A DNA stretch of 64,000 nucleotides, from assembly GCF_014205845.1 (NCBI RefSeq), contig NZ_JACHCR010000008.1, positions 62,001 to 126,000 on the forward strand, given 5' to 3'. A program made the position numbers and the translations under genes. The DNA comes from Mucilaginibacter cryoferens. Lineage in GTDB: Bacteria > Bacteroidota > Bacteroidia > Sphingobacteriales > Sphingobacteriaceae. Positions 28,235 through 47,071 of this stretch are shown here, piece by piece. Below the pieces are notes generated by a model. That model was not told the DNA's origin. It saw only the letters and a list, made by a program, of their open reading frames with translations, and did not search any database. Each line of letters opens with the position of its first letter. Position 1 is the first letter of the stretch.

Positions 28235-29479
28235 TTATTGGTACAACAAGTACTTACTTCGTTTGCGTTTAAATTTATCGAGCCCCGGCTGCCAGCTTGC
28301 ACGAATCTCGTCTTCACTTTTACCTGATGTTATTTGCTTTTGCAGCTCCTTACTGCCCGCCAGCTTGGTAAAGTAGGCGTTAAAAAAATGCTCTTTATCG
28401 GGAAATGCTTTGTATAGCTCTATCAGCCAGGCAAGATTTAGATGGCCGAAGCTCCTGATCTGGTCTGTACTATAGCTTTTAAGGTCGATACCAAAACACT
28501 GTTTATCCTTTTGTGGCGGGTTTTCGCTCATCCCGGGAATGCTCAAAGGCGTAAAGGCATAAGTATAAATTCCCTGCAACAATGGATGGCCTAACACCAG
28601 GAACGGGAAATAAGTGCCCCTGCCCAGGCTAAGGGTTGTACCCTCAAACAGGCACACGCTTGGGTATAGTAAAATAGATTGATCGGTATTTAAATTTGGC
28701 GATGGACTTACCGGCAAATTATAAGCCATATCATGTGTGTAGTTGGCAACTTTAATGATCTTTAGCTTACATTTTACACCGTTTTTTAGCCAGTGTTCGC
28801 CATTTATCATTTTAGCATACTCACCAACGGTCATTCCGTGGCTAATGGGGATAGGGTGCATGCCAACAAACGAATGATAGGCAGTATCCAATATAGGGCC
28901 ATCAATAAGGTAACCGTTGGGGTTTGGCCTGTCCAGTATCATCAGTTCTACGTGGTTTTCGGCACAGGCTTCCATTACATAATGCAGAGTAGATATGTAG
29001 GTGTAAAACCTGGTGCCAACATCCTGTATATCAAATATCATTAGGTCAATCCCCTTTAAGTCGGCAGCTGTTGGTTTGTAATGTTTGTTGCCGTATAAAG
29101 AAATTACCGGCAGACCGGTTTTTGCGTCTATGGCATCGTTAACTACAGCTCCGTTACTTGCATTGCCACGGAAGCCATGCTCGGGGCCAAATACTTTTTT
29201 TATGGCTATGCCACGTTTTAAGAGACTATCAACACTGGGCGTAAGGGTTTTACCAATAACTGAAGTTTGATTAACAACCATCCCAATATTTTTTCCCTTA
29301 AGATAATCAATATACAGCGCAATTTGATCGGCCCCGGTAATTATTTCTTCGTCAATTTTTTTTGCGGGTTGGTGCTCTTTTATAAGGCTATCTGCTTTAA
29401 CTGGCGGTTTCGCGGATACTGTATAAACACTTAAGATTGCTATTGCTGCGGTATAAATAAAAACAGGAACTATTTTCAT
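28235..29479 (-). CDS. NamZ-like exo-beta-N-acetylmuramidase (GH171, DUF1343)
   Basis: The 414-residue protein has a signal peptide (PVFIYTAAIAILSVYTVSA). The rest matches the former DUF1343 family: KNIGMVVNQTSVIGKTLTPS, then FGPEHGFRGNASNGAVV, MIFDIQDVGTRFYTYISTLH, ILDRPNPNGYLIDGPILD, and a C-terminal NLNTDQSILLYPSVCLFEGTTLSLGRGT. Characterised NamZ enzymes release terminal MurNAc from peptidoglycan fragments, and the family was defined in part from Bacteroidota. It should act in the periplasm in wall recycling. No MurNAc kinase or etherase gene is adjacent. Confidence 0.9.
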   Translation of the reverse strand: MKIVPVFIYTAAIAILSVYTVSAKPPVKADSLIKEHQPAKKIDEEIITGADQIALYIDYLKGKNIGMVVNQTSVIGKTLTPSVDSLLKRGIAIKKVFGPEHGFRGNASNGAVVNDAIDAKTGLPVISLYGNKHYKPTAADLKGIDLMIFDIQDVGTRFYTYISTLHYVMEACAENHVELMILDRPNPNGYLIDGPILDTAYHSFVGMHPIPISHGMTVGEYAKMINGEHWLKNGVKCKLKIIKVANYTHDMAYNLPVSPSPNLNTDQSILLYPSVCLFEGTTLSLGRGTYFPFLVLGHPLLQGIYTYAFTPLSIPGMSENPPQKDKQCFGIDLKSYSTDQIRSFGHLNLAWLIELYKAFPDKEHFFNAYFTKLAGSKELQKQITSGKSEDEIRASWQPGLDKFKRKRSKYLLYQ

Positions 29480-29564
29480 AAAATATTGTGTTGAAACAAT
29501 TTAAAAAGTAGCAGGTTTAATAGCAAAACCGCATATTTGCGAAGGTACTAAAAATCATTCTGCA

Positions 29565-30785
29565 TTGAGTTTCGCCTCCTTTATATCAGCCCGTATAACA
29601 TTCAAGTCAAAACGTACATTTTCAAAACTGATAGTACGGATTGCCATTATTGGTATTATGCTTGGTTTGGGCGTAATGATATTATCGGTGGCCATAGTAA
29701 AAGGATTTAAACACGAGATTCGCGAAAAAGTTCGTGGCTTTGCCGGCGATATCAGGATCATTAAGTCTGATCTTAATAGCTCGTACGAGAGTTCGCCCAT
29801 TACTTACGATGCCAATTTTGTGAAACGGGCGCTAAAAAACCCGTTGATAACGCATGTAATGCCAAGTGCCACCAAGCCGGGTATTATTAAGGCGAACAAT
29901 GAAATTGAAGGCGTTGTGCTAAAAGGAGTTGATAAAACTTACGATTGGACTTACCTCAAAAAAATGTTGCTGGCCGGTGATGTGATAGATTTTAAAGATT
30001 CTGTTGAAGCCCAAAAAGAGATCATGCTGTCTCAACAAACCGCCAATCGCCTAAAACTGAAGGTAGGCGACAAGATGCTGATGTATTTTGTACAGGAGCC
30101 CTTGCGCAAACGGCAGTTTACAATAAAAGGTATTTTTAGCATTGGGGAAGAAGAGATTGATAAAACCTTTGTAATTGGCGCGCTATCGCTTATAAACCGG
30201 CTTAACGATTGGAAACCCGGCGAAATTGGCGAATATGAAATGCGGGTAGCTGATTTTAACCAGGTGGATGTTGCTGCCGATAGAATTGACGATATGCTGC
30301 CTATTAAGCTAAAATCGCACACCGTGATGGAGGATTACCCCAACATATTTGAGTGGCTTAAATTGTTGGATGTAAACTCGGTAGTAATGCTGGTACTTAT
30401 GGTTATTGTTGCTGTTATAAATATGATATCGGCCTTGCTTATCATGATATTGGAGCGTACCGCCATGATAGGGATGTTTAAAGCCATGGGTGCATCAAAC
30501 TGGAACATTCAGAAAGTGTTTTTATTTAATGCCACCTACCTCATTGGCCTTGGTTTGTTATTGGGCAATATATTTGGCATTGGCATTGGCTTTTTTCAGC
30601 AACAGACCCACTTTTTTAAACTCGACCAGGCATCTTATTATATGACGTTTGTGCCGGTACAATTTAACTTATCGGATATACTGCTGCTCAACCTGGGCAC
30701 CTTGGTAATTTGCTTGTTGGTATTAATTATACCCTCAACGTTGGTGAGTAAAATATCGCCGGTTAAGGCGATAAGGTTTAAGTAA
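29565..30785 (+). CDS. FtsX-like ABC transporter permease (LolC/LolE type)
   Basis: The 406-residue protein starts with TTG at 29565. It has one N-terminal membrane segment (residues 23-45, LIVRIAIIGIMLGLGVMILSV), a large periplasmic MacB-type core domain (45-265), and three C-terminal segments (around 270-300, 320-345 and 370-395) of the FtsX family. That topology matches LolC/LolE or MacB permeases. The ATPase partner is not adjacent. A lipoprotein-release role fits but is not shown. The gene is divergent from the NamZ-like gene and convergent with the porin gene ending at 30790. Confidence 0.85.
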   Translation: MSFASFISARITFKSKRTFSKLIVRIAIIGIMLGLGVMILSVAIVKGFKHEIREKVRGFAGDIRIIKSDLNSSYESSPITYDANFVKRALKNPLITHVMPSATKPGIIKANNEIEGVVLKGVDKTYDWTYLKKMLLAGDVIDFKDSVEAQKEIMLSQQTANRLKLKVGDKMLMYFVQEPLRKRQFTIKGIFSIGEEEIDKTFVIGALSLINRLNDWKPGEIGEYEMRVADFNQVDVAADRIDDMLPIKLKSHTVMEDYPNIFEWLKLLDVNSVVMLVLMVIVAVINMISALLIMILERTAMIGMFKAMGASNWNIQKVFLFNATYLIGLGLLLGNIFGIGIGFFQQQTHFFKLDQASYYMTFVPVQFNLSDILLLNLGTLVICLLVLIIPSTLVSKISPVKAIRFK

Positions 30786-30789
30786 GTAT

Positions 30790-31560
30790 CTAATTTATCC
30801 GGTAGCTCAGGCCTACTCTTAGTAATTCACTATGCACAGAAAGTGGGGTAGAATTGCCCCCTCCGGCATTGGTATCCAACGGAATTGCCGATTGGTAATT
30901 TGTTAAACCATAGGCATAGCTGGCGTTAAGGCCAATACGGCCATAAGTGGCAATAGCTCCTAAGCGCAGACGCACATCTGTAGGTGGTTTGGGTCTGGCA
31001 TAGTCAACGGTATACGTTTTACCGTCATTGCCTTTAACGCTGCCCTTATCTTTGGTATTTAACATAATGCCAATATCCATCCCCGGTAAAATATCTAATT
31101 TAACTTTATGGAGTTGCATGCGATAGCCAATATATGGGTTTAGGTTGATGGTTTGATTTTGCAAGTTAGTATGCCCCTTTACCGGAAAACTGGGATCGGT
31201 ATAAGCAAGCTGATTTTGCAAGCCGTAGTAATATACCAATGGCGTGTATTTATTGATAGTTACCTGGCTGCGTAGTATTTCGTACCCACCCTGCAAGCCA
31301 AATATAAAGCCGCTTTTGGCTACAACCTGCGCCTGGATGCTGCCTCCATAGCTAAAGCCGCTATGATTGCCATAAGGGTTGTTGGTATAGTTGGTATTGT
31401 TATCTGAACTAGACTGTATTACCTGCGATGTTCCGGTTGATGATTTGCCCGCAAAGTTAAATAAACCCGAAGTTGCCTGTACCGATAACTCTACTTTTTG
31501 AGCAAACAAAGGAGAAACGGAAAAGATACATGCTACTAACGCAAGTAACTGTTTTTTCAT
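30790..31560 (-). CDS. Outer-membrane beta-barrel protein (porin family)
   Basis: The 256-residue protein has a signal peptide (KQLLALVACIFSVSPLFAQ). Alternating amphipathic strands with aromatic girdles and a terminal strand ending in aromatic-containing YRIN resemble the PF13568-type small barrels of Bacteroidota. Its ATG overlaps the stop of the preceding gene by four bases (31557-31560), so it is the last member of the sigma/anti-sigma-barrel operon. Its role may be as output or as partner of the large barrel-fused protein; nothing in the sequence decides this. Confidence 0.8.
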   Translation of the reverse strand: MKKQLLALVACIFSVSPLFAQKVELSVQATSGLFNFAGKSSTGTSQVIQSSSDNNTNYTNNPYGNHSGFSYGGSIQAQVVAKSGFIFGLQGGYEILRSQVTINKYTPLVYYYGLQNQLAYTDPSFPVKGHTNLQNQTINLNPYIGYRMQLHKVKLDILPGMDIGIMLNTKDKGSVKGNDGKTYTVDYARPKPPTDVRLRLGAIATYGRIGLNASYAYGLTNYQSAIPLDTNAGGGNSTPLSVHSELLRVGLSYRIN

Positions 31561-33128
31561 TTTTTTAATTTTGTAAAATTAAGTTTCAGGTTGATACCGC
31601 CTGCCCCAAATTTTATCTGTTGCGATCCCAGGCCTTCAAGCGGGTATTTTAAAAATGGTTCAATTACTAAACGGTTGCTTTTGCCCAAAGCGGTGCCAAT
31701 ACCAAAAGAAATGTTAAGTGTTTTGGCAAAATAAAAGCTGTTGAAGCTTTGGCGGTTTGTTTCTTCGGATGTTTGTTGTGTTGAACCTGCCAATAACGAT
31801 GAGTTTGGCGAGCCATAACTTGTTGTATAAGCCTCGTTAATAAAAGTACCAGAACTTAACCCGGCAGAGAAGTAGGCATCTGTTTTTTGCGGATTAAACT
31901 CGTATTTAATGTTAATAGGCACATCTAACCCAACCAAACTGGCATTATAATTTTTAAATACCGGAAACGATGATGCCGGTACAAGCTTGGTATCCTGTGC
32001 GGCTAATGCATAAGATACTGCGCTTACTGCATTTTGAGTTGGTGGTGTATTGCTGTTGTACTTTAACGTGTTTTGTGCCAAAGCTACCCCTGTAGTAAGC
32101 TTAAAGTTTTTACCAAGCCTGATATCGGAACTAAAACCAGCGCCGGCGTTTACCTGGTTGGCGCTTCCTTTGGCATAGTTAAAAAAGGTTGCCGCGTAAA
32201 TGCCAAATTTTACTTTCTTATCATCAATTACCTTATCCTTTTTGGTGTCGTGGAAATTATCGTTGGCAAACATCGTTGCCATAGCATTTGCCGATTTAAC
32301 CGAAGCCGCCGGCTGGTTTGTATTGTTTGGTTTTACTGTATTTGTGGTATTGGTTGCACTTGTAACAGGTGTATTGGCAGCGTATTGCGGGTTGTTATTT
32401 TTAGGTATAATTGCTTTAACGGTATCGCCTCCTTTTACTGCCGAAGCAGCGGAGATAGCCGGTTGTTTGTTTACCGGTTGCTGAGCAATAACCGGGTTAT
32501 TATTACCACCTAAGGTAATATTGGAAGTGTTTGATTTTTGCCCGGTAACCGGTGTATTTACAGCGGGTTTACCTGGCTTGTTGTTTTGAGCAATGACATT
32601 GCTTGTTATGGCTGCAGCATTAACTAAACTATTATTGTTTACAGGTTTTTTAATTGCAGGGCCATTATTTTGTGCTATAGTATTTTGTATGGTTAACGCC
32701 GTATCAACAAGCGAAGTGCCATGTTGATGTTTTTTAGTGGCCGGGAGGGTATTTTTAGCCATACTTTGTTGGGTTGATACAACTGTATCAACCGGGGTGT
32801 TTTTTGCCGTTGGGCCGGGGTTTGCGGCTAATTGTGTGGCGCTATCAACAGAGGTAGCTTTAGTAGTTTTAATTTGTTGTTTTACAGGTTGTATAGCCAC
32901 GTTATTTGTAACAGGCTTTTTATCCAGCATCCACATACCTATACTTAAAAATAGCAACAAACCGGCGGCGGCGCTTGCCCACCAAAGCCAAACCAGCGGA
33001 CGTTTCTTCTCCTCCACCGGAAATTTTTCCCGGAGCAATAACCAGCCTTCATCGGCAGTGGTGTCTTCGTAATTATCAAACACCTCCCTGATGCGGTTCT
33101 TTAAGTCGTTATCCAACTGATCATCCAT
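31557..33128 (-). CDS. Anti-sigma-like protein fused through a long linker to an outer-membrane barrel
   Basis: The 523-residue protein has three parts. Residues 1-42 are a charged cytoplasmic segment typical of anti-sigma N-termini (DLKNRIREVFDNYEDTTADE). One membrane segment lies at about 45-68 with no cleavage site. Residues 71-300 are a low-complexity Asn/Thr/Pro/Ala-rich linker, and residues 305-523 look like an eight-stranded PF13568-type barrel ending GAGGINLKLNFTKL. The gene starts eight bases inside the end of an ECF sigma gene and overlaps a porin gene by four. It could therefore bridge both membranes and hold the sigma factor. The barrel assignment is by pattern, not structure. Confidence 0.75.
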   Translation of the reverse strand: MDDQLDNDLKNRIREVFDNYEDTTADEGWLLLREKFPVEEKKRPLVWLWWASAAAGLLLFLSIGMWMLDKKPVTNNVAIQPVKQQIKTTKATSVDSATQLAANPGPTAKNTPVDTVVSTQQSMAKNTLPATKKHQHGTSLVDTALTIQNTIAQNNGPAIKKPVNNNSLVNAAAITSNVIAQNNKPGKPAVNTPVTGQKSNTSNITLGGNNNPVIAQQPVNKQPAISAASAVKGGDTVKAIIPKNNNPQYAANTPVTSATNTTNTVKPNNTNQPAASVKSANAMATMFANDNFHDTKKDKVIDDKKVKFGIYAATFFNYAKGSANQVNAGAGFSSDIRLGKNFKLTTGVALAQNTLKYNSNTPPTQNAVSAVSYALAAQDTKLVPASSFPVFKNYNASLVGLDVPINIKYEFNPQKTDAYFSAGLSSGTFINEAYTTSYGSPNSSLLAGSTQQTSEETNRQSFNSFYFAKTLNISFGIGTALGKSNRLVIEPFLKYPLEGLGSQQIKFGAGGINLKLNFTKLKK

Positions 33129-33675
33129 GGTTTTGTGTCTCTTGCCTTAATATTTTTCTCAATCGTTCTTTAGCCCGGCTCAAATAAACGCGCGACGAGC
33201 TGGCCGGGATAGCTAACATGTTACCAATTTCATCATGATTATAACCATCTATTTCGTACATATTAAAGATGGTAAGCTGTATGGCAGGCAGCTCACTCAT
33301 CAGTTTCAATATATCCTGTGCATTTAAATTATCAAGTGTGCCTATATTACTGCTAATAGGGGCAGCGTTATCCAACTCAACATTTAACTGAAATTTAAGA
33401 TCCTTGCGGCGGCGGTCGATAGCGGTGTTCACTACAATAGTACGTAGCCAGGCTTTAAAGGGTTTATCTGTATTGTAGTTGTGTACAGCATTAAACACTT
33501 TTATAAATGCATCATTTACAGCTTCTAACGCGTCGTCGCGATTTAAGCTGTAACGCAGGCTTATACCCATGGCATAGCCATAAAACTGCTTATAAAGCAA
33601 TTCCTGGTATTTAAGGTTGCCTGTTTTGCATTGGCTGATGATCTCTTCTTCAGTAATGCCTTTGGGTAGATGCAT
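33121..33675 (-). CDS. ECF RNA polymerase sigma factor
   Basis: The 184-residue protein has sigma region 2 (LLYKQFYGYAMGISLRYSLN, DDALEAVNDAFIKVFNAVHN, KPFKAWLRTIVVNTAIDRRR) and region 4 (LPAIQLTIFNMYEIDGYNHD, EIGNMLAIPASSSRVYLSRA). Its 3' end overlaps the next gene by eight bases, so sigma and membrane partner are translationally coupled. That coupling is the usual arrangement for an ECF sigma and its cognate anti-sigma. Target promoters are unknown; autoregulation of this operon is the simple expectation. Confidence 0.93.
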   Translation of the reverse strand: MHLPKGITEEEIISQCKTGNLKYQELLYKQFYGYAMGISLRYSLNRDDALEAVNDAFIKVFNAVHNYNTDKPFKAWLRTIVVNTAIDRRRKDLKFQLNVELDNAAPISSNIGTLDNLNAQDILKLMSELPAIQLTIFNMYEIDGYNHDEIGNMLAIPASSSRVYLSRAKERLRKILRQETQNHG

Positions 33676-33828
33676 TAAGTATATTTAATTCCGCTTAAAT
33701 ATTGTGTTGGTTTCTATGTATTTACGCAGTAAGTAACCTTATTGATACAAATAACAAAAAGATTTTTTTACTATTTGTGTCATACCGCGTTAATAGTTGT
33801 GGCTAACCATTAAATTGATGCATTAGCG

Positions 33829-33870
33829 ACTGAATAGCCGTCGCTAAAATAAAAGCGACGGCTATTCAGT
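33829..33870. terminator. 17-bp hairpin without a T run
   Basis: ACTGAATAGCCGTCGCT (33829-33845) pairs perfectly with 33854-33870 over an 8-base loop. It lies 17 bases beyond the stop of the minus-strand lipoprotein gene, where a terminator is expected, but no T tract follows on either strand. Confidence 0.6.
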
Positions 33871-33886
33871 TAAAAACAATAATAAA

Positions 33887-34333
33887 TTAGTTTGCCGTTT
33901 TTACAAGATCATAGCGCCCCACAGTATCCGGATTTGTGGCCGATGTAGCACGCAGCATTTTAAAGTTTAAACCATCATAAATATACTGATAAACGCCTGC
34001 AAGGTGTTTTTTAGGATACGGGCCTACAGAGCTAAAAGTGCTATCGTTAAATTGAATGTAGTTACCATCGTAAGCAAAGGTACCGTGGCTGCCGGCATGG
34101 ATCTTTGTAGTATCGGCCAATACTTTAAAATGATAATCGGAGGTCATTTTTAATATGATCGAATCTTTTAACGTATCATAAGCACCAATTGAGTTTTTTG
34201 TAAGTAACCTAAACTTTCCATTAAATGTTCCGGATGGAGCAATTACTGTAGCGGGAATGCCTGAGTTTTTTGCGCAGGAGGCAACTAATGCAAGTAATAG
34301 TAGTGGTAATAAGTAAAATAAATTACGTTTCAT
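33887..34333 (-). CDS. Small lipocalin-like lipoprotein
   Basis: The 148-residue protein has a lipoprotein signal with lipobox VASC (Cys20). The mature part is strand-rich with the pattern GTFNGKFRLLTKNSIGAYDTLKD, SDYHFKVLADTT, HGTFAYDGNYIQFNDSTF and HLAGVYQYIYDGLNFKMLR, which resembles small lipocalin-like beta-barrels common in Bacteroidota. No ligand or partner is apparent. It is transcribed alone, 211 bases from the ECF sigma gene on the same strand. Confidence 0.75.
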   Translation of the reverse strand: MKRNLFYLLPLLLLALVASCAKNSGIPATVIAPSGTFNGKFRLLTKNSIGAYDTLKDSIILKMTSDYHFKVLADTTKIHAGSHGTFAYDGNYIQFNDSTFSSVGPYPKKHLAGVYQYIYDGLNFKMLRATSATNPDTVGRYDLVKTAN

Positions 34334-34398
34334 AATCTTTGTTATTTGTAGCCATTACGAGTATAAAGATACAAATGCAACACCCGATTAGCAGATTT

Positions 34399-35202
34399 TT
34401 ATAATTTCTTTGCTTCGTTCCAAAAAATATCCATTTCGGCAAGGCTCATATCCTGCAATTGTTTGCCTTGTTCCTTTGCCTTAAGCTCCAGGTATTGAAA
34501 ACGTTTAATGAACTTTTTGTTGGTTTTTTCGAGTGCGTTTTCTGGATTGATATTTATAAAGCGGGCGTAGTTGATAAGCGAAAACAGCAGATCGCCAAAT
34601 TCGCCTTCGGCTTTTTCATGGTCGATAGTGGTTTCGTCTTCGGCGTTAAACTCGTTTTTAAACTCTTGCAGTTCTTCCTCAACCTTTGCCCAAACCTGGT
34701 TTTTCTCTTCCCAGTCGAAACCCACACCCCGGGCTTTTTCCTGTATGCGCGACGCCTTTACCAATGCCGGTAATGACGATGGCACGCCACCCAAAACAGA
34801 TTTATTACCTTCTCTGAGTTTTATCTGCTCCCAGTTGCGTTTTACATCCTCTTCGTTCTGCACTTCAACATCGCCATAAATATGCGGGTGGCGATTGATC
34901 AGCTTATCGCAAACACTGTTTAAAACATCGGTGATGGTAAAATCATTGGTTTCTGATGCTATTTTGGAGTAAAAAACCAGGTGCAGCATAATATCACCTA
35001 ATTCCTTTTTTATCTCCTGCACATCATCGCCCAAAATGGCATCACTCAGTTCATAAGTTTCTTCAATGGTGAGGTGCCTGAGGCTTTCCAGTGTTTGCTT
35101 TTTATCCCATGGGCAGTTGGCCCGCAGGTCGTCCATAATAATAAGCAGGCGTTGAAAGGCAATAGATGAGGTGGGTGCTGTTTCGGGGGCTTTTAAAGGC
35201 AT
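34399..35202 (-). CDS. mazG: Nucleoside triphosphate pyrophosphohydrolase
   Basis: The 267-residue protein is full-length MazG with two all-alpha pyrophosphatase repeats. The first has LRANCPWDKKQTLESLRHLT, then EETYELSDAILGDDVQEIKK and ELGDIMLHLVFYSKIA. The second has EEELQEFKNEFN and EGEFGDLLFSLINYARF. The EExxE..ExxD metal motifs are intact in both. It hydrolyses NTPs to NMP and pyrophosphate, cleaning abnormal nucleotides. It is 52 bases downstream of mnmD on the same strand. Confidence 0.96.
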   Translation of the reverse strand: MPLKAPETAPTSSIAFQRLLIIMDDLRANCPWDKKQTLESLRHLTIEETYELSDAILGDDVQEIKKELGDIMLHLVFYSKIASETNDFTITDVLNSVCDKLINRHPHIYGDVEVQNEEDVKRNWEQIKLREGNKSVLGGVPSSLPALVKASRIQEKARGVGFDWEEKNQVWAKVEEELQEFKNEFNAEDETTIDHEKAEGEFGDLLFSLINYARFININPENALEKTNKKFIKRFQYLELKAKEQGKQLQDMSLAEMDIFWNEAKKL

Positions 35203-35254
35203 ATTTATTTGCTAAGTGTTTGTGCAAAGGTATAATAACATGTTTAATGCAAAC

Positions 35255-35989
35255 TTATGGGGCGGTAATTTTAGTGGCCCTTAACATTTCTCTTTTGCCC
35301 GCCGCTCCGGGTATTTTTTCAATTTTAAAATCGAGTGCTTTCAGCATCCGTTTAAGATTGCCGGTTATGGCATAGGTAACAAATATGCCGCCTGGTTTTA
35401 CAAAGGCCGCAACCCTGCTTATGGCTTCCTGTTCCCACATCTCGGGTTGGCGCGATGCGGCAAAGGCATCAAAGTAAACAATATCGTATTGCCGGGGTGC
35501 TTTAAAGGCCTGGAGTTTGCAGTTAGCAATTTGTAACAGGGTGTATGTATTGAGTGTAACCTGGCTTAATAACGCGTTGGGATATTGGGTAATATAGGTT
35601 TTCCAAAGTTCAGATGAGGTATATTCCTCATACCCCGTCTGGCTCATTATTTCCGGGGTTAGCGGATATGCCTCTATGCCTGTATAGTTAAGGCTAACTT
35701 GCCTATCGACGCATACATCGGCACTCAGTAAAAAATTAAGGCCTGTGCCAAAACCAACTTCCAGTATACTTACTTCGGTTGTATTTGTGTTGGCCAGAAA
35801 AAAGTTAAGGCCGGCATTAACAAAAACATGCTTACTCTCCTGCAAAGCGCCGTTACGCGAGTGATACAGTTCTCCAACTTCTGCATTATAAATGGTTTTT
35901 GAGCCATCGGCAGTAGTTACTATAGATAGCTCATAGGGCTTGCCGCCCACTGCTTCGGCATTTACGGGTGCATCATTATTCATGAACAA
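35255..35989 (-). CDS. mnmD: tRNA (mnm5s2U34)-methyltransferase MnmD
   Basis: The 244-residue protein matches the methyltransferase half of bifunctional MnmC as a free-standing enzyme: GELYHSRNGALQESKHVFV, then ILEVGFGTGLNFLLS (SAM loop), and YDIVYFDAFAASRQPEMW. The FAD-dependent half is absent. It performs the last methylation of mnm5s2U34 in tRNA. Its start overlaps the end of the CstB-like gene by 14 bases, so translation may be coupled; both concern sulfur, since the tRNA base carries a thiol, but the link is contextual. Confidence 0.88.
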   Translation of the reverse strand: MFMNNDAPVNAEAVGGKPYELSIVTTADGSKTIYNAEVGELYHSRNGALQESKHVFVNAGLNFFLANTNTTEVSILEVGFGTGLNFLLSADVCVDRQVSLNYTGIEAYPLTPEIMSQTGYEEYTSSELWKTYITQYPNALLSQVTLNTYTLLQIANCKLQAFKAPRQYDIVYFDAFAASRQPEMWEQEAISRVAAFVKPGGIFVTYAITGNLKRMLKALDFKIEKIPGAAGKREMLRATKITAP

Positions 35990-37319
35990 AATATTCCTTT
36001 ATAACTTCGCCCAGATCATAAACCGGTACAGTTTTTATTTGAGCTGCTACTATACTGGTTGCGGCTGCCGAACGGTAGCCTGCCGCGCAATGAATTACAA
36101 TAGGCTTTTCAGTTGGTATTTCATTTATACGTTCGCGTAGTTGGGGCAGGGGTATACTAATGGCAGTTTTAAATACTTTACCTTCGTTTACTTCGCCCTG
36201 GTTACGTACATCTATAATGGTATAGTTATCTGCGTTGGCGTTAAAATCTTCCAGGTACAGATCTGGTAATCTTTCGGTGGCGTTTGAGGGAGATTGCAGG
36301 GTTGCTGCAATATTGTTTTCGTACCCTATTTTAGCGGCCTTTTCAATCAGTATTTTAGTGGTTGCCGCGTTTTCGGCAATCAGATAAAATTGTTCGGTTG
36401 GTTGTAGGATGCTACCTAACCAGGTTTCAAATTTTTCGCCATCCTGCAGGTTAATAGCACCTTTAAGGTGACCCGATCTGAACATATTTTTAGGGCGACT
36501 ATCAATTATGGTTATTCCATCAACTAACTGAATGTTGGCTTCAATTTTAGTAACCTCATCTACACTTTGCTGAAACGCAGGTGCTCCCGTTTTGTTCAAC
36601 TCCACATCGTACTCAAAGTATTTGGGTGTAAAGGGCTGATCGGTGGTTAAGGTTTTAACAAAGGTTAACTCGTCCATCAATTGCAGCGCATAGTTTTCCA
36701 ACAGCTCGCGGCCTATGGTGCTTTGCAGATCGGGACTTATATTTTTGCCGCATAACGAACCTGGGCCATGCGCAGGGTATACCACAACGCTCTTTGGTAA
36801 GGTCATTAATTTATGGCGGGTGCTCTGGTACATTTGTTTGGCCAGTTCTTCTTTTTTCGCAGTAATATTACCCACATTTTCCCGCAGGTCCGGGCGGCCA
36901 ACGTCGCCCACAAATAATGTATCGCCGGTAAAAATAGCAGTTTCTTTACCTTCTTCATCCTTGAGCAAAATACAGATTGAATCTGGCGAATGGCCAGGGG
37001 TATTGATGGCTTTTAACTTAATATCATTCAGTTGAATAATGTCGCCATCATCGAAGGTTTCGTGAGGGTAAGTGGCACCGGTAAGCTTGCTGCAATAAAT
37101 TACCGCGCCGGTAGCCTTGTGAATTTCGAGGTGCGAGCTTATGAAATCGGCATGAGGGTGTGTTTCTATAACGCCCACAATATTGGCATCGTGCTGCGCT
37201 GCCAAATCGTAATATGGTTGCGGGTTACGTGCCGGATCAATAACGATCATTTTACCTGTGCGGATAATGGCATAAGATGCATGTGCCAAACCTTTATCGT
37301 AGAATTGCTGGATAATCAT
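35976..37319 (-). CDS. CstB-like persulfide dioxygenase with two rhodanese domains
   Basis: From ATG 37317-37319 the protein is 447 residues; four residues upstream are unlike the family. An N-terminal metallo-beta-lactamase domain (residues 1-240) carries THPHADFISSH, TPGHSPDSI, FTGDTLFVGDVGRPDL and VVYPAHGPGSLCG. A rhodanese-like domain follows (about 255-340) whose active-site cysteine position is not Cys (FYLIAEN). A second rhodanese (about 355-447) has the active Cys in VIHCAAGYRSAAAT. This matches CstB, which oxidises persulfide and forms thiosulfate in sulfide detoxification. Substrate not proven here. Confidence 0.9.
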   Translation of the reverse strand: MIIQQFYDKGLAHASYAIIRTGKMIVIDPARNPQPYYDLAAQHDANIVGVIETHPHADFISSHLEIHKATGAVIYCSKLTGATYPHETFDDGDIIQLNDIKLKAINTPGHSPDSICILLKDEEGKETAIFTGDTLFVGDVGRPDLRENVGNITAKKEELAKQMYQSTRHKLMTLPKSVVVYPAHGPGSLCGKNISPDLQSTIGRELLENYALQLMDELTFVKTLTTDQPFTPKYFEYDVELNKTGAPAFQQSVDEVTKIEANIQLVDGITIIDSRPKNMFRSGHLKGAINLQDGEKFETWLGSILQPTEQFYLIAENAATTKILIEKAAKIGYENNIAATLQSPSNATERLPDLYLEDFNANADNYTIIDVRNQGEVNEGKVFKTAISIPLPQLRERINEIPTEKPIVIHCAAGYRSAAATSIVAAQIKTVPVYDLGEVIKEYFVHE

Positions 37320-37412
37320 ATTCGGCTGCAAAGATAGCAGTTTGAGAGAAATGTTTTAACGGCCAAATGTTGAAGCGTTGTAAAAGTATCAGGATTTTAA
37401 CTGTATAAAACA

Positions 37413-37441
37413 ACAGAGCCCGGTTATTTGCCAGGCTCTGT
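37413..37441. terminator. Hairpin terminator between the MBL and M13 genes
   Basis: ACAGAGCC (37413-37420) pairs with GGCTCTGT (37434-37441). TCGTTTT follows on the plus strand and a weaker T run on the minus. Confidence 0.6.
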
Positions 37442-37451
37442 CGTTTTATCA

Positions 37452-37506
37452 AACGCAAGTGAAAACTCTTGTCTTGCTACTTGATACTAAATACTTGCTA
37501 CTTGAA
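37452..37506. repeat. CTTGCTACTTGA word repeat after pepO
   Basis: Variants of CTTGCTACTTGATACT recur two to three times just past the stop of the M13 peptidase gene (CTTGCTACTTGATACTAAAT, then ACTTGCTACTTGA). No strong inverted arm is seen. It shares the iterated-word style of the elements at 24144 and 45019. Confidence 0.55.
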
Positions 37507-46223: not shown

Positions 46224-46385
46224 GCCTCCGGCATCTCAAATTATAATTTAATAGCAGGTTATTTAAGTAACATTTTTGTTAGGTGTATCACTTCGGCGCG
46301 TTTATCCGTAACTCCGACATTTTATCTAAAAATGCCCCATACGCTATAATTTAGAGGTTTTAACCTGTTTCTGATTTTCTGGTCC

Positions 46386-46510: not shown

Positions 46511-47071
46511 ATGATACTTCTATTCTGCGGATTATCAGGCGCCGGTAAAACAACATTGGCCAAAAAAGTTGCTGCTGAGCTAATAGAACTTGGCATAAGA
46601 GCCGAAATAATTGATGGCGATGAATATCGCAATGAAATTTGCCGCGACCTTGGCTTTAGCAAAGCCGATAGGTACGAAAACATTCGACGCCTGGGTTTTG
46701 TGGCCAGCAGATTTTCGGCACATGGTGTTGTTACTATTGTGAGCGCCATAAACCCATACGAAGAAATGCGCCGCGAACTGGTTGAAAAGTATGAGCACGT
46801 AAATATTGTACATATTGATTGCCCTGTTAAGCAGCTCATCAGCCGCGATACCAAAGGACTTTATAAAAAAGCTTTTTTGCCAGATGGGCATCCCGATAAA
46901 CTAACTAACCTAACAGGCATCAATGCGCAATTTGATGTGCCTTACGCTCCCGACCTATATATTAACACCAGCGAAAATACGGTGCAGGAAAGTGCTGCCT
47001 CTCTGTTGTATTTTATCCTTAATAATCTTCATCCTACCGAGAAAGTTAGGGATAAGGTAGCATTTAAATAA
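46511..47071 (+). CDS. cysC: Adenylyl-sulfate (APS) kinase
   Basis: The 186-residue P-loop kinase has Walker A GLSGAGKT at residues 7-14, then IDGDEYRNEICRDLGFSKAD with RYENIRRLGFVA matching the APS-binding region of CysC, VVTIVSAINPYEEMRREL, and DTKGLYKKAF. It phosphorylates APS to PAPS. No ATP sulfurylase gene is adjacent. The downstream sulfotransferase begins 36 bases after the stop, so the two probably make and use PAPS in one short operon. It is slightly shorter than typical 200-residue CysC. Confidence 0.92.
   Translation: MILLFCGLSGAGKTTLAKKVAAELIELGIRAEIIDGDEYRNEICRDLGFSKADRYENIRRLGFVASRFSAHGVVTIVSAINPYEEMRRELVEKYEHVNIVHIDCPVKQLISRDTKGLYKKAFLPDGHPDKLTNLTGINAQFDVPYAPDLYINTSENTVQESAASLLYFILNNLHPTEKVRDKVAFK

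Follow-up and report, generated by a model that had tools for sequence, protein, structure and literature searches.

The analysed stretch of Mucilaginibacter cryoferens DNA (64,000 nucleotides; hereafter the window) encodes a single protein that would connect an outer-membrane barrel to a cytosolic ECF sigma factor. Our reading, to which we give a probability of roughly 86%, is that this protein is a Dma-type anti-sigma factor that spans both membranes, holds its sigma factor and is signalled through the outer-membrane barrel. The architecture, gene order, conservation, N-terminal homology and sigma factor grouping described here were established by computation. Three overlapping genes lie on the minus strand, and the ORF list agrees with the earlier note on this point: an ECF sigma factor gene (33121..33675; 184 aa, with Pfam Sigma70_r2 and Sigma70_r4_2), the gene of the fusion protein (31557..33128; 523 aa), which overlaps the sigma gene by 8 bases, and a second outer-membrane barrel gene (30790..31560; 256 aa), which overlaps the end of the fusion gene by four bases (TCAT/ATGA), again as first described.

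The fusion protein, whose parts are all given here in minus-strand coordinates, begins with a putative cytoplasmic sigma-binding domain (residues 1–44; 32997..33128), delimited by AlphaFold, homology and alignment, in which AlphaFold places two helices (3–18 and 24–35). The single membrane segment proposed earlier is recovered by AlphaFold and sequence alike as one hydrophobic helix at 44/45–68, the computed inner-membrane helix (residues 45–68; 32925..32996). It leads into a predicted disordered periplasmic tether (residues 69–304; 32217..32924), where pLDDT stays below 50 over residues 70–281. The description of this tether as Asn/Thr/Pro-rich holds for Asn (14.5%) and Thr (12.8%); Pro, at only 8.1%, falls below Ala (13.2%) and Lys (10.2%). 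The C-terminal barrel (residues 305–523; 31560..32216) has ten strand segments within 306–518, eight of them long, in an AlphaFold model that is weak overall (mean pLDDT 50.5, pTM 0.36; pLDDT 41 to 86 across ten-residue blocks of the barrel). The domain matches closed eight-stranded barrels in Foldseek, with VIA-align giving a second look at Foldseek's own matches. The C terminus is thus predicted to be the outer-membrane-type barrel that had been suspected, not a soluble fold, and is probably closed because the structures it matches are. A short helix before the barrel (residues 282–291; 32256..32285), SMxxMFAxD-like in the majority of sequences, is conserved within the otherwise sequence-free tether.

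The fusion protein has no match in Pfam or NCBIfam (E ≤ 1) or among PDB sequences. The PF13568 (OMP_b-brl_2) profile likewise does not match it, and matches 11 of the 32 aligned fusion proteins at E ≤ 0.01 (best 2.6e-6). In FecA–FecR-type systems, an ECF sigma factor answers to an event at the outer membrane by way of an inner-membrane anti-sigma protein. There the receptor and the anti-sigma factor are separate and the receptor is TonB-dependent, whereas the window has a single chain whose barrel is small and which lacks a FecR domain (Pfam/NCBIfam, E ≤ 1). A search for a TonB-dependent receptor near the fusion found no ORF longer than 523 aa overlapping 28500–37500, and an ORF of 523 aa is too short to encode one.

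At least 634 proteins, the window's own included, were retrieved at E ≤ 1e-3 in a homologue search that scored 7998 candidates, and most, not all, of the best 120 of those 634 by BLASTP cover nearly the whole query. Across 31 homologues hand-picked from these best 120, mean identity to the window protein reaches 78% for the cytoplasmic part and drops to 20% for the tether, with 65% for the membrane helix and 66% for the barrel. At the sequence level, this pattern fits two functional ends with a spacer between them. Tether length, at 153–257 aa across 32 sequences (the window's included), fits selection on span, given how freely the tether sequence varies.

The family profile matches 50 of 296 Bacteroidota genomes and 30 of 139 genera, with some matches lying in short frames. 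Besides the window's own, 29 phylum loci were compared, one per genome and three of them from Mucilaginibacter. An ECF gene lies directly upstream of the family member in all 29 (gap −49 to +7). The frame that follows it encodes 408–621 aa in 28 of them, the exception being one of 263 aa; a membrane helix was called in 25 of the 28 longer proteins. Within Mucilaginibacter, which we take to belong to the family Sphingobacteriaceae, the protein is present in 104 of 120 genomes, and in 88 of the 96 of good quality. A fusion of this kind appears to recur beside ECF genes well beyond the window, which the earlier note had proposed to check, and the arrangement is not chance. In the window's own genome, 18 sigma factor matches were found at E ≤ 1e-5, and the 11 examined with their neighbours yielded three fusions and one split system. 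Apart from the window's, the fusions are L060 (1300–3335 of contig C17; 452 aa) and L063 (2992–5255 of contig C2; 560 aa), each with an ECF gene. L063 was not accepted as a homologue of the window protein, being unclear at either end (E 0.001 or worse), so that what groups it with the others is its architecture, its gene order and the sigma factor tree.

We then compared the window protein with its Bacteroides counterparts, whose loci were fetched via a bait protein; the window sigma factor then served as query against the genomes of 4 of the 53 loci. It has three matches at E ≤ 1e-10 in B. fragilis, two of which precede fusions (420 and 361 aa). Behind the 361-aa fusion lie genes for a DUF4943 (E 4.5e-72) and a DUF4858 protein (E 1.6e-59), and we labelled its set Dma2-type because this is the gene order stated for dma2 in the accessible text of PMC13088901; "Dma1/Reo-like", for the 420-aa set, is a label assigned in this analysis. 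Compared with one another, these sets align along their length (E 2.6e-33). Against the Dma1/Reo-like set, the N-terminal ~70 residues of the window protein give an hhalign E of 7.9e-9 directly and 2.7e-13 with intermediates; against the Dma2-type set, the corresponding values are 2.1e-4 directly and 3.2e-10 with phylum intermediates. The best direct control among seven, L068, which we labelled FecR-like, reached 1.7e-6 through the membrane helix only. Another control, L064 (short, anti-sigma-like, with a single membrane helix), reached 3.6e-7 with intermediates alone and 1.8e-6 with both sets. The N-terminal link to the Dma2-type set needs intermediates, as its direct E of 2.1e-4 is no better than the controls. 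The window barrel matches the phylum-fusion barrels at E 8.5e-39 and shows no direct match to the two Bacteroides barrel sets (E 0.19 and 0.032). The phylum-fusion barrels in turn match the Bacteroides barrels at E 8e-9 and 2e-8, against 1e-6 at best for six unrelated barrels of the own genome. Hence the window barrel is recognisably related to that of Dma only through intermediates.

The sigma factors group in a similar manner. A tree of 48 sigma factors places those of 29 fusions and 8 Bacteroides pairs on one side of a branch with 99/97 support, with seven of nine controls beyond it; L064 and an orphan sigma factor, L062, lie inside. Support is 96/79 for a narrower group (40 rows, L062 among them) and only 39/56 for the 29 fusion-associated sigma factors as one clade. 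The tree tool warns of long branches among the control sigma factors. Left out were L051 and L058, in which the sigma frame is cut by the locus end, and L139, in which the match lies inside a 542-aa frame; the L060 sigma factor was trimmed to 190 residues. In this tree, the window sigma factor groups with B. fragilis-type sigma factors. The orphan L062 (1082–1648; contig C50 of the own genome) is a same-group sigma factor with no adjacent anti-sigma gene, followed by a converging gene near the contig end.

N-terminal and membrane-helix homology to Dma/Reo-type proteins, together with a sigma factor that clusters with theirs in the tree, supports a sigma-holding role. Joined with the predicted barrel, these results uphold the proposal that one protein could carry an outer-membrane barrel and hold a sigma factor in the cytosol. 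They also bear on the reading that the protein is no anti-sigma factor at all and is simply an outer-membrane protein co-transcribed with an ECF gene. We regard this as very improbable: although the fusion protein contains no Pfam or NCBIfam anti-sigma domain, its N terminus is homologous to Bacteroides Dma/Reo-type proteins, the ECF gene is linked in 29 of 29 loci, and an uncleaved-looking helix follows the conserved, charged 44-residue part.

A design of this kind has been described in gut Bacteroides. In the accessible text of PMC13088901, the Dma family has an anti-sigma domain, a membrane helix, a long disordered tether and a C-terminal barrel, lies beside ECF21 sigma genes and is said to occur only in Bacteroidota. 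As far as Dma1, Dma2, Dma3 and the Das sigma factors (ECF21) of Bacteroides thetaiotaomicron are described there, the window protein has the same order of parts and the same place behind an ECF gene. The B. fragilis counterpart of Dma2 is related to it in the N-terminal segment and has a related sigma factor, and the B. thetaiotaomicron Dma proteins are likened to the window protein by description. The accessible portion of PMC9308784 describes a P. vulgatus anti-sigma factor that has a C-terminal barrel and is predicted to reach across the periplasm, and that of PMC13114119 names the pair EcfO–Reo, with Reo spanning all five compartments. EcfO–Reo of Bacteroides fragilis and Phocaeicola vulgatus is likewise, in what these sources make accessible, a periplasm-spanning anti-sigma factor with a C-terminal outer-membrane barrel and a paired ECF gene; oxygen, antibacterial toxins and outer-membrane stress are named there as inducers or likely signals (PMC9308784, PMC13114119). 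The one-protein span reading is correct and, in the accessible parts of this literature, already published for Bacteroides and Phocaeicola. Dma was described from Bacteroides, whereas the window member comes from Mucilaginibacter, outside the gut Bacteroides, so that a signalling design of gut Bacteroides is extended to another genus, in which 120 genomes were examined. A search of the literature on Mucilaginibacter anti-sigma factors and outer-membrane proteins found no paper, in a coverage that most subscription journals fall outside. Two features that we did not meet in the accessible Dma/Reo literature may be new: a second barrel linked to the fusion, and fused and split forms existing side by side.

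In the mechanism that we infer, residues 1–44 would hold the sigma factor at the inner membrane, where residues 45–68 would anchor the protein. Residues 69–304 would run through the periplasm as a disordered tether, and residues 305–523 would be inserted in the outer membrane as a barrel. A ligand at the barrel, or a disturbance of the barrel or its assembly, would then be relayed along the tether to the inner membrane and free the sigma factor, which would act on its own operon and on envelope genes.

The split forms show an alternative layout of the same parts. In the own genome (contig C5), L061 (764–2897) encodes an ECF sigma factor, a 251-aa anti-sigma-like protein with a membrane helix and tether and no barrel, and a 272-aa PF13568 barrel with a signal-peptide-like start. 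By eye, a stretch near the end of the 251-aa protein resembles the SMxxMFAxD-like helix. We examined 21 regions in which the family match lies in frames of 230–397 aa, five shorter frames being left out. Eight (L145–L149, L155, L156, L165) have an ECF gene, a 236–265-aa protein and an exported-looking protein of 270–371 aa. Three (L152, L153, L159) have an ECF gene, a 229–245-aa protein and an exported-looking protein of a different kind, and five (L151, L160, L161, L162, L164) look FecR-like from their lengths and the order of their genes. In L150 and L163 the script picked up no frame downstream, and in L154, L157 and L158 no ECF gene. As in L061, the exported protein matches PF13568 (E ≤ 0.01) in three of the eight split regions (L155, L156 and L165, the last below the curated cut-off); the exported proteins of L145–L149 have no PF13568 match at that threshold, and a barrel is only presumed there.

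If these split sets do work in this way, the tip of the tether and the barrel would have to meet non-covalently. Because split versions exist, the wider family may be able to do without the covalent link, and the fusion itself might normally be cut near the membrane helix to give a free barrel and a short inner-membrane anti-sigma factor. The split version in the own genome and the similar sets in eight regions of other genomes speak for such cleavage, as does a Ser-Ile-Gly triplet inside the membrane helix. By eye, however, this small-X-small triplet is buried in the hydrophobic core and followed by Met-Trp-Met-Leu, and the helix has no polar c-region; a search for cysteine in the fusion protein found none, and therefore no lipobox. 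Ordinary signal-peptide cleavage consequently looks unlikely from the sequence, in line with the uncleaved segment first proposed. The tether also keeps its length despite its free sequence, and published relatives are described, in the accessible texts, as spanning both membranes (PMC13088901, PMC13114119). We therefore consider routine cleavage improbable.

A further reading keeps the anti-sigma function and makes the barrel merely an anchor or structural link, the signal being sensed either by the tether or at the inner membrane by intramembrane proteolysis of the kind known from RseA. This is a variant of our best explanation, so the odds of the two overlap, and we hold it unlikely while giving it appreciable weight. 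Split relatives do keep the anti-sigma part and tether without a barrel, yet in the fusions barrel and membrane helix are conserved to the same degree (66% and 65% identity). For the published relatives, the accessible texts propose that outer-membrane stress or unknown substrates are sensed and name no ligand (PMC13088901, PMC9308784, PMC13114119), which also favours an anchoring barrel. For a protein signalled through its outer-membrane barrel, the fused and split forms and the linked second barrel offer a natural comparison that could help to reveal what the outer-membrane end senses.

The second barrel gene takes the place of the DUF4943 and DUF4858 genes that follow dma2. Its 256-aa product has no Pfam match at E ≤ 1, matches the NF049866 outer-membrane barrel model below cut-off and carries, by eye, an N-terminal signal-peptide-like segment. 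Compared with the fusion barrel by hhalign (E 0.1), it is not recognisable as a copy. The gene lies directly behind the fusion gene in about a third of the genus, and two genomes (G357 and G410) have two tandem copies there. A second, separately exported barrel would probably act as a partner or output at the outer membrane. More doubtfully, we suggest that Mucilaginibacter uses a three-gene surface-signalling unit with the second barrel as a dedicated gate or ligand partner, and that Bacteroidota move between fused and split forms.

Upstream of the sigma gene lies a promoter-like element, GTATCA-N16-CGTAA (33722..33748, minus strand), a candidate ECF promoter through which the operon may be autoregulated. 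The window and 19 of 20 genus relatives carry it without mismatch, and the remaining relative, L181, with one; these 20 are high-scoring and chosen from the 104, and as close kin they make this conservation weak as evidence. None of 50 other sigma genes, including L031–L033 and the Bacteroides pairs, has the exact element within 300 bases upstream, where 12 of the upstream regions hold fewer than 250 bases and 6 no more than 2. The best near-matches in nine of the 50 have 3–4 mismatches, as in most shuffles, and L031, L032 and L033 are at chance level; the element is therefore a feature of nearer relatives only. Across the own genome, GTATCA-N15–17-GCGTAA occurs at 9 sites against 2 for a reversed control pattern, and only two of the nine, those of the window operon and L199, are free of larger frames and have an ORF of 80 aa or more starting no further than 200 bases downstream. 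As a marker of a wider regulon the element was rejected, being not clearly above chance genome-wide outside the window operon. Within the window, sites that match GTATCA-N16-CGTAA with up to two mismatches number 32 against 17.2 expected, a count reached in 1 of 100 shuffles. A second exact element (46285–46311, plus strand) is intergenic, about 200 bases before an ORF at 46511. Further upstream of the sigma gene, on the same strand, is a 148-aa lipoprotein-like gene (33887–34333), and in several relatives the end of this gene, followed by a GC-rich inverted repeat with a T-run, is seen by eye upstream of the sigma gene.
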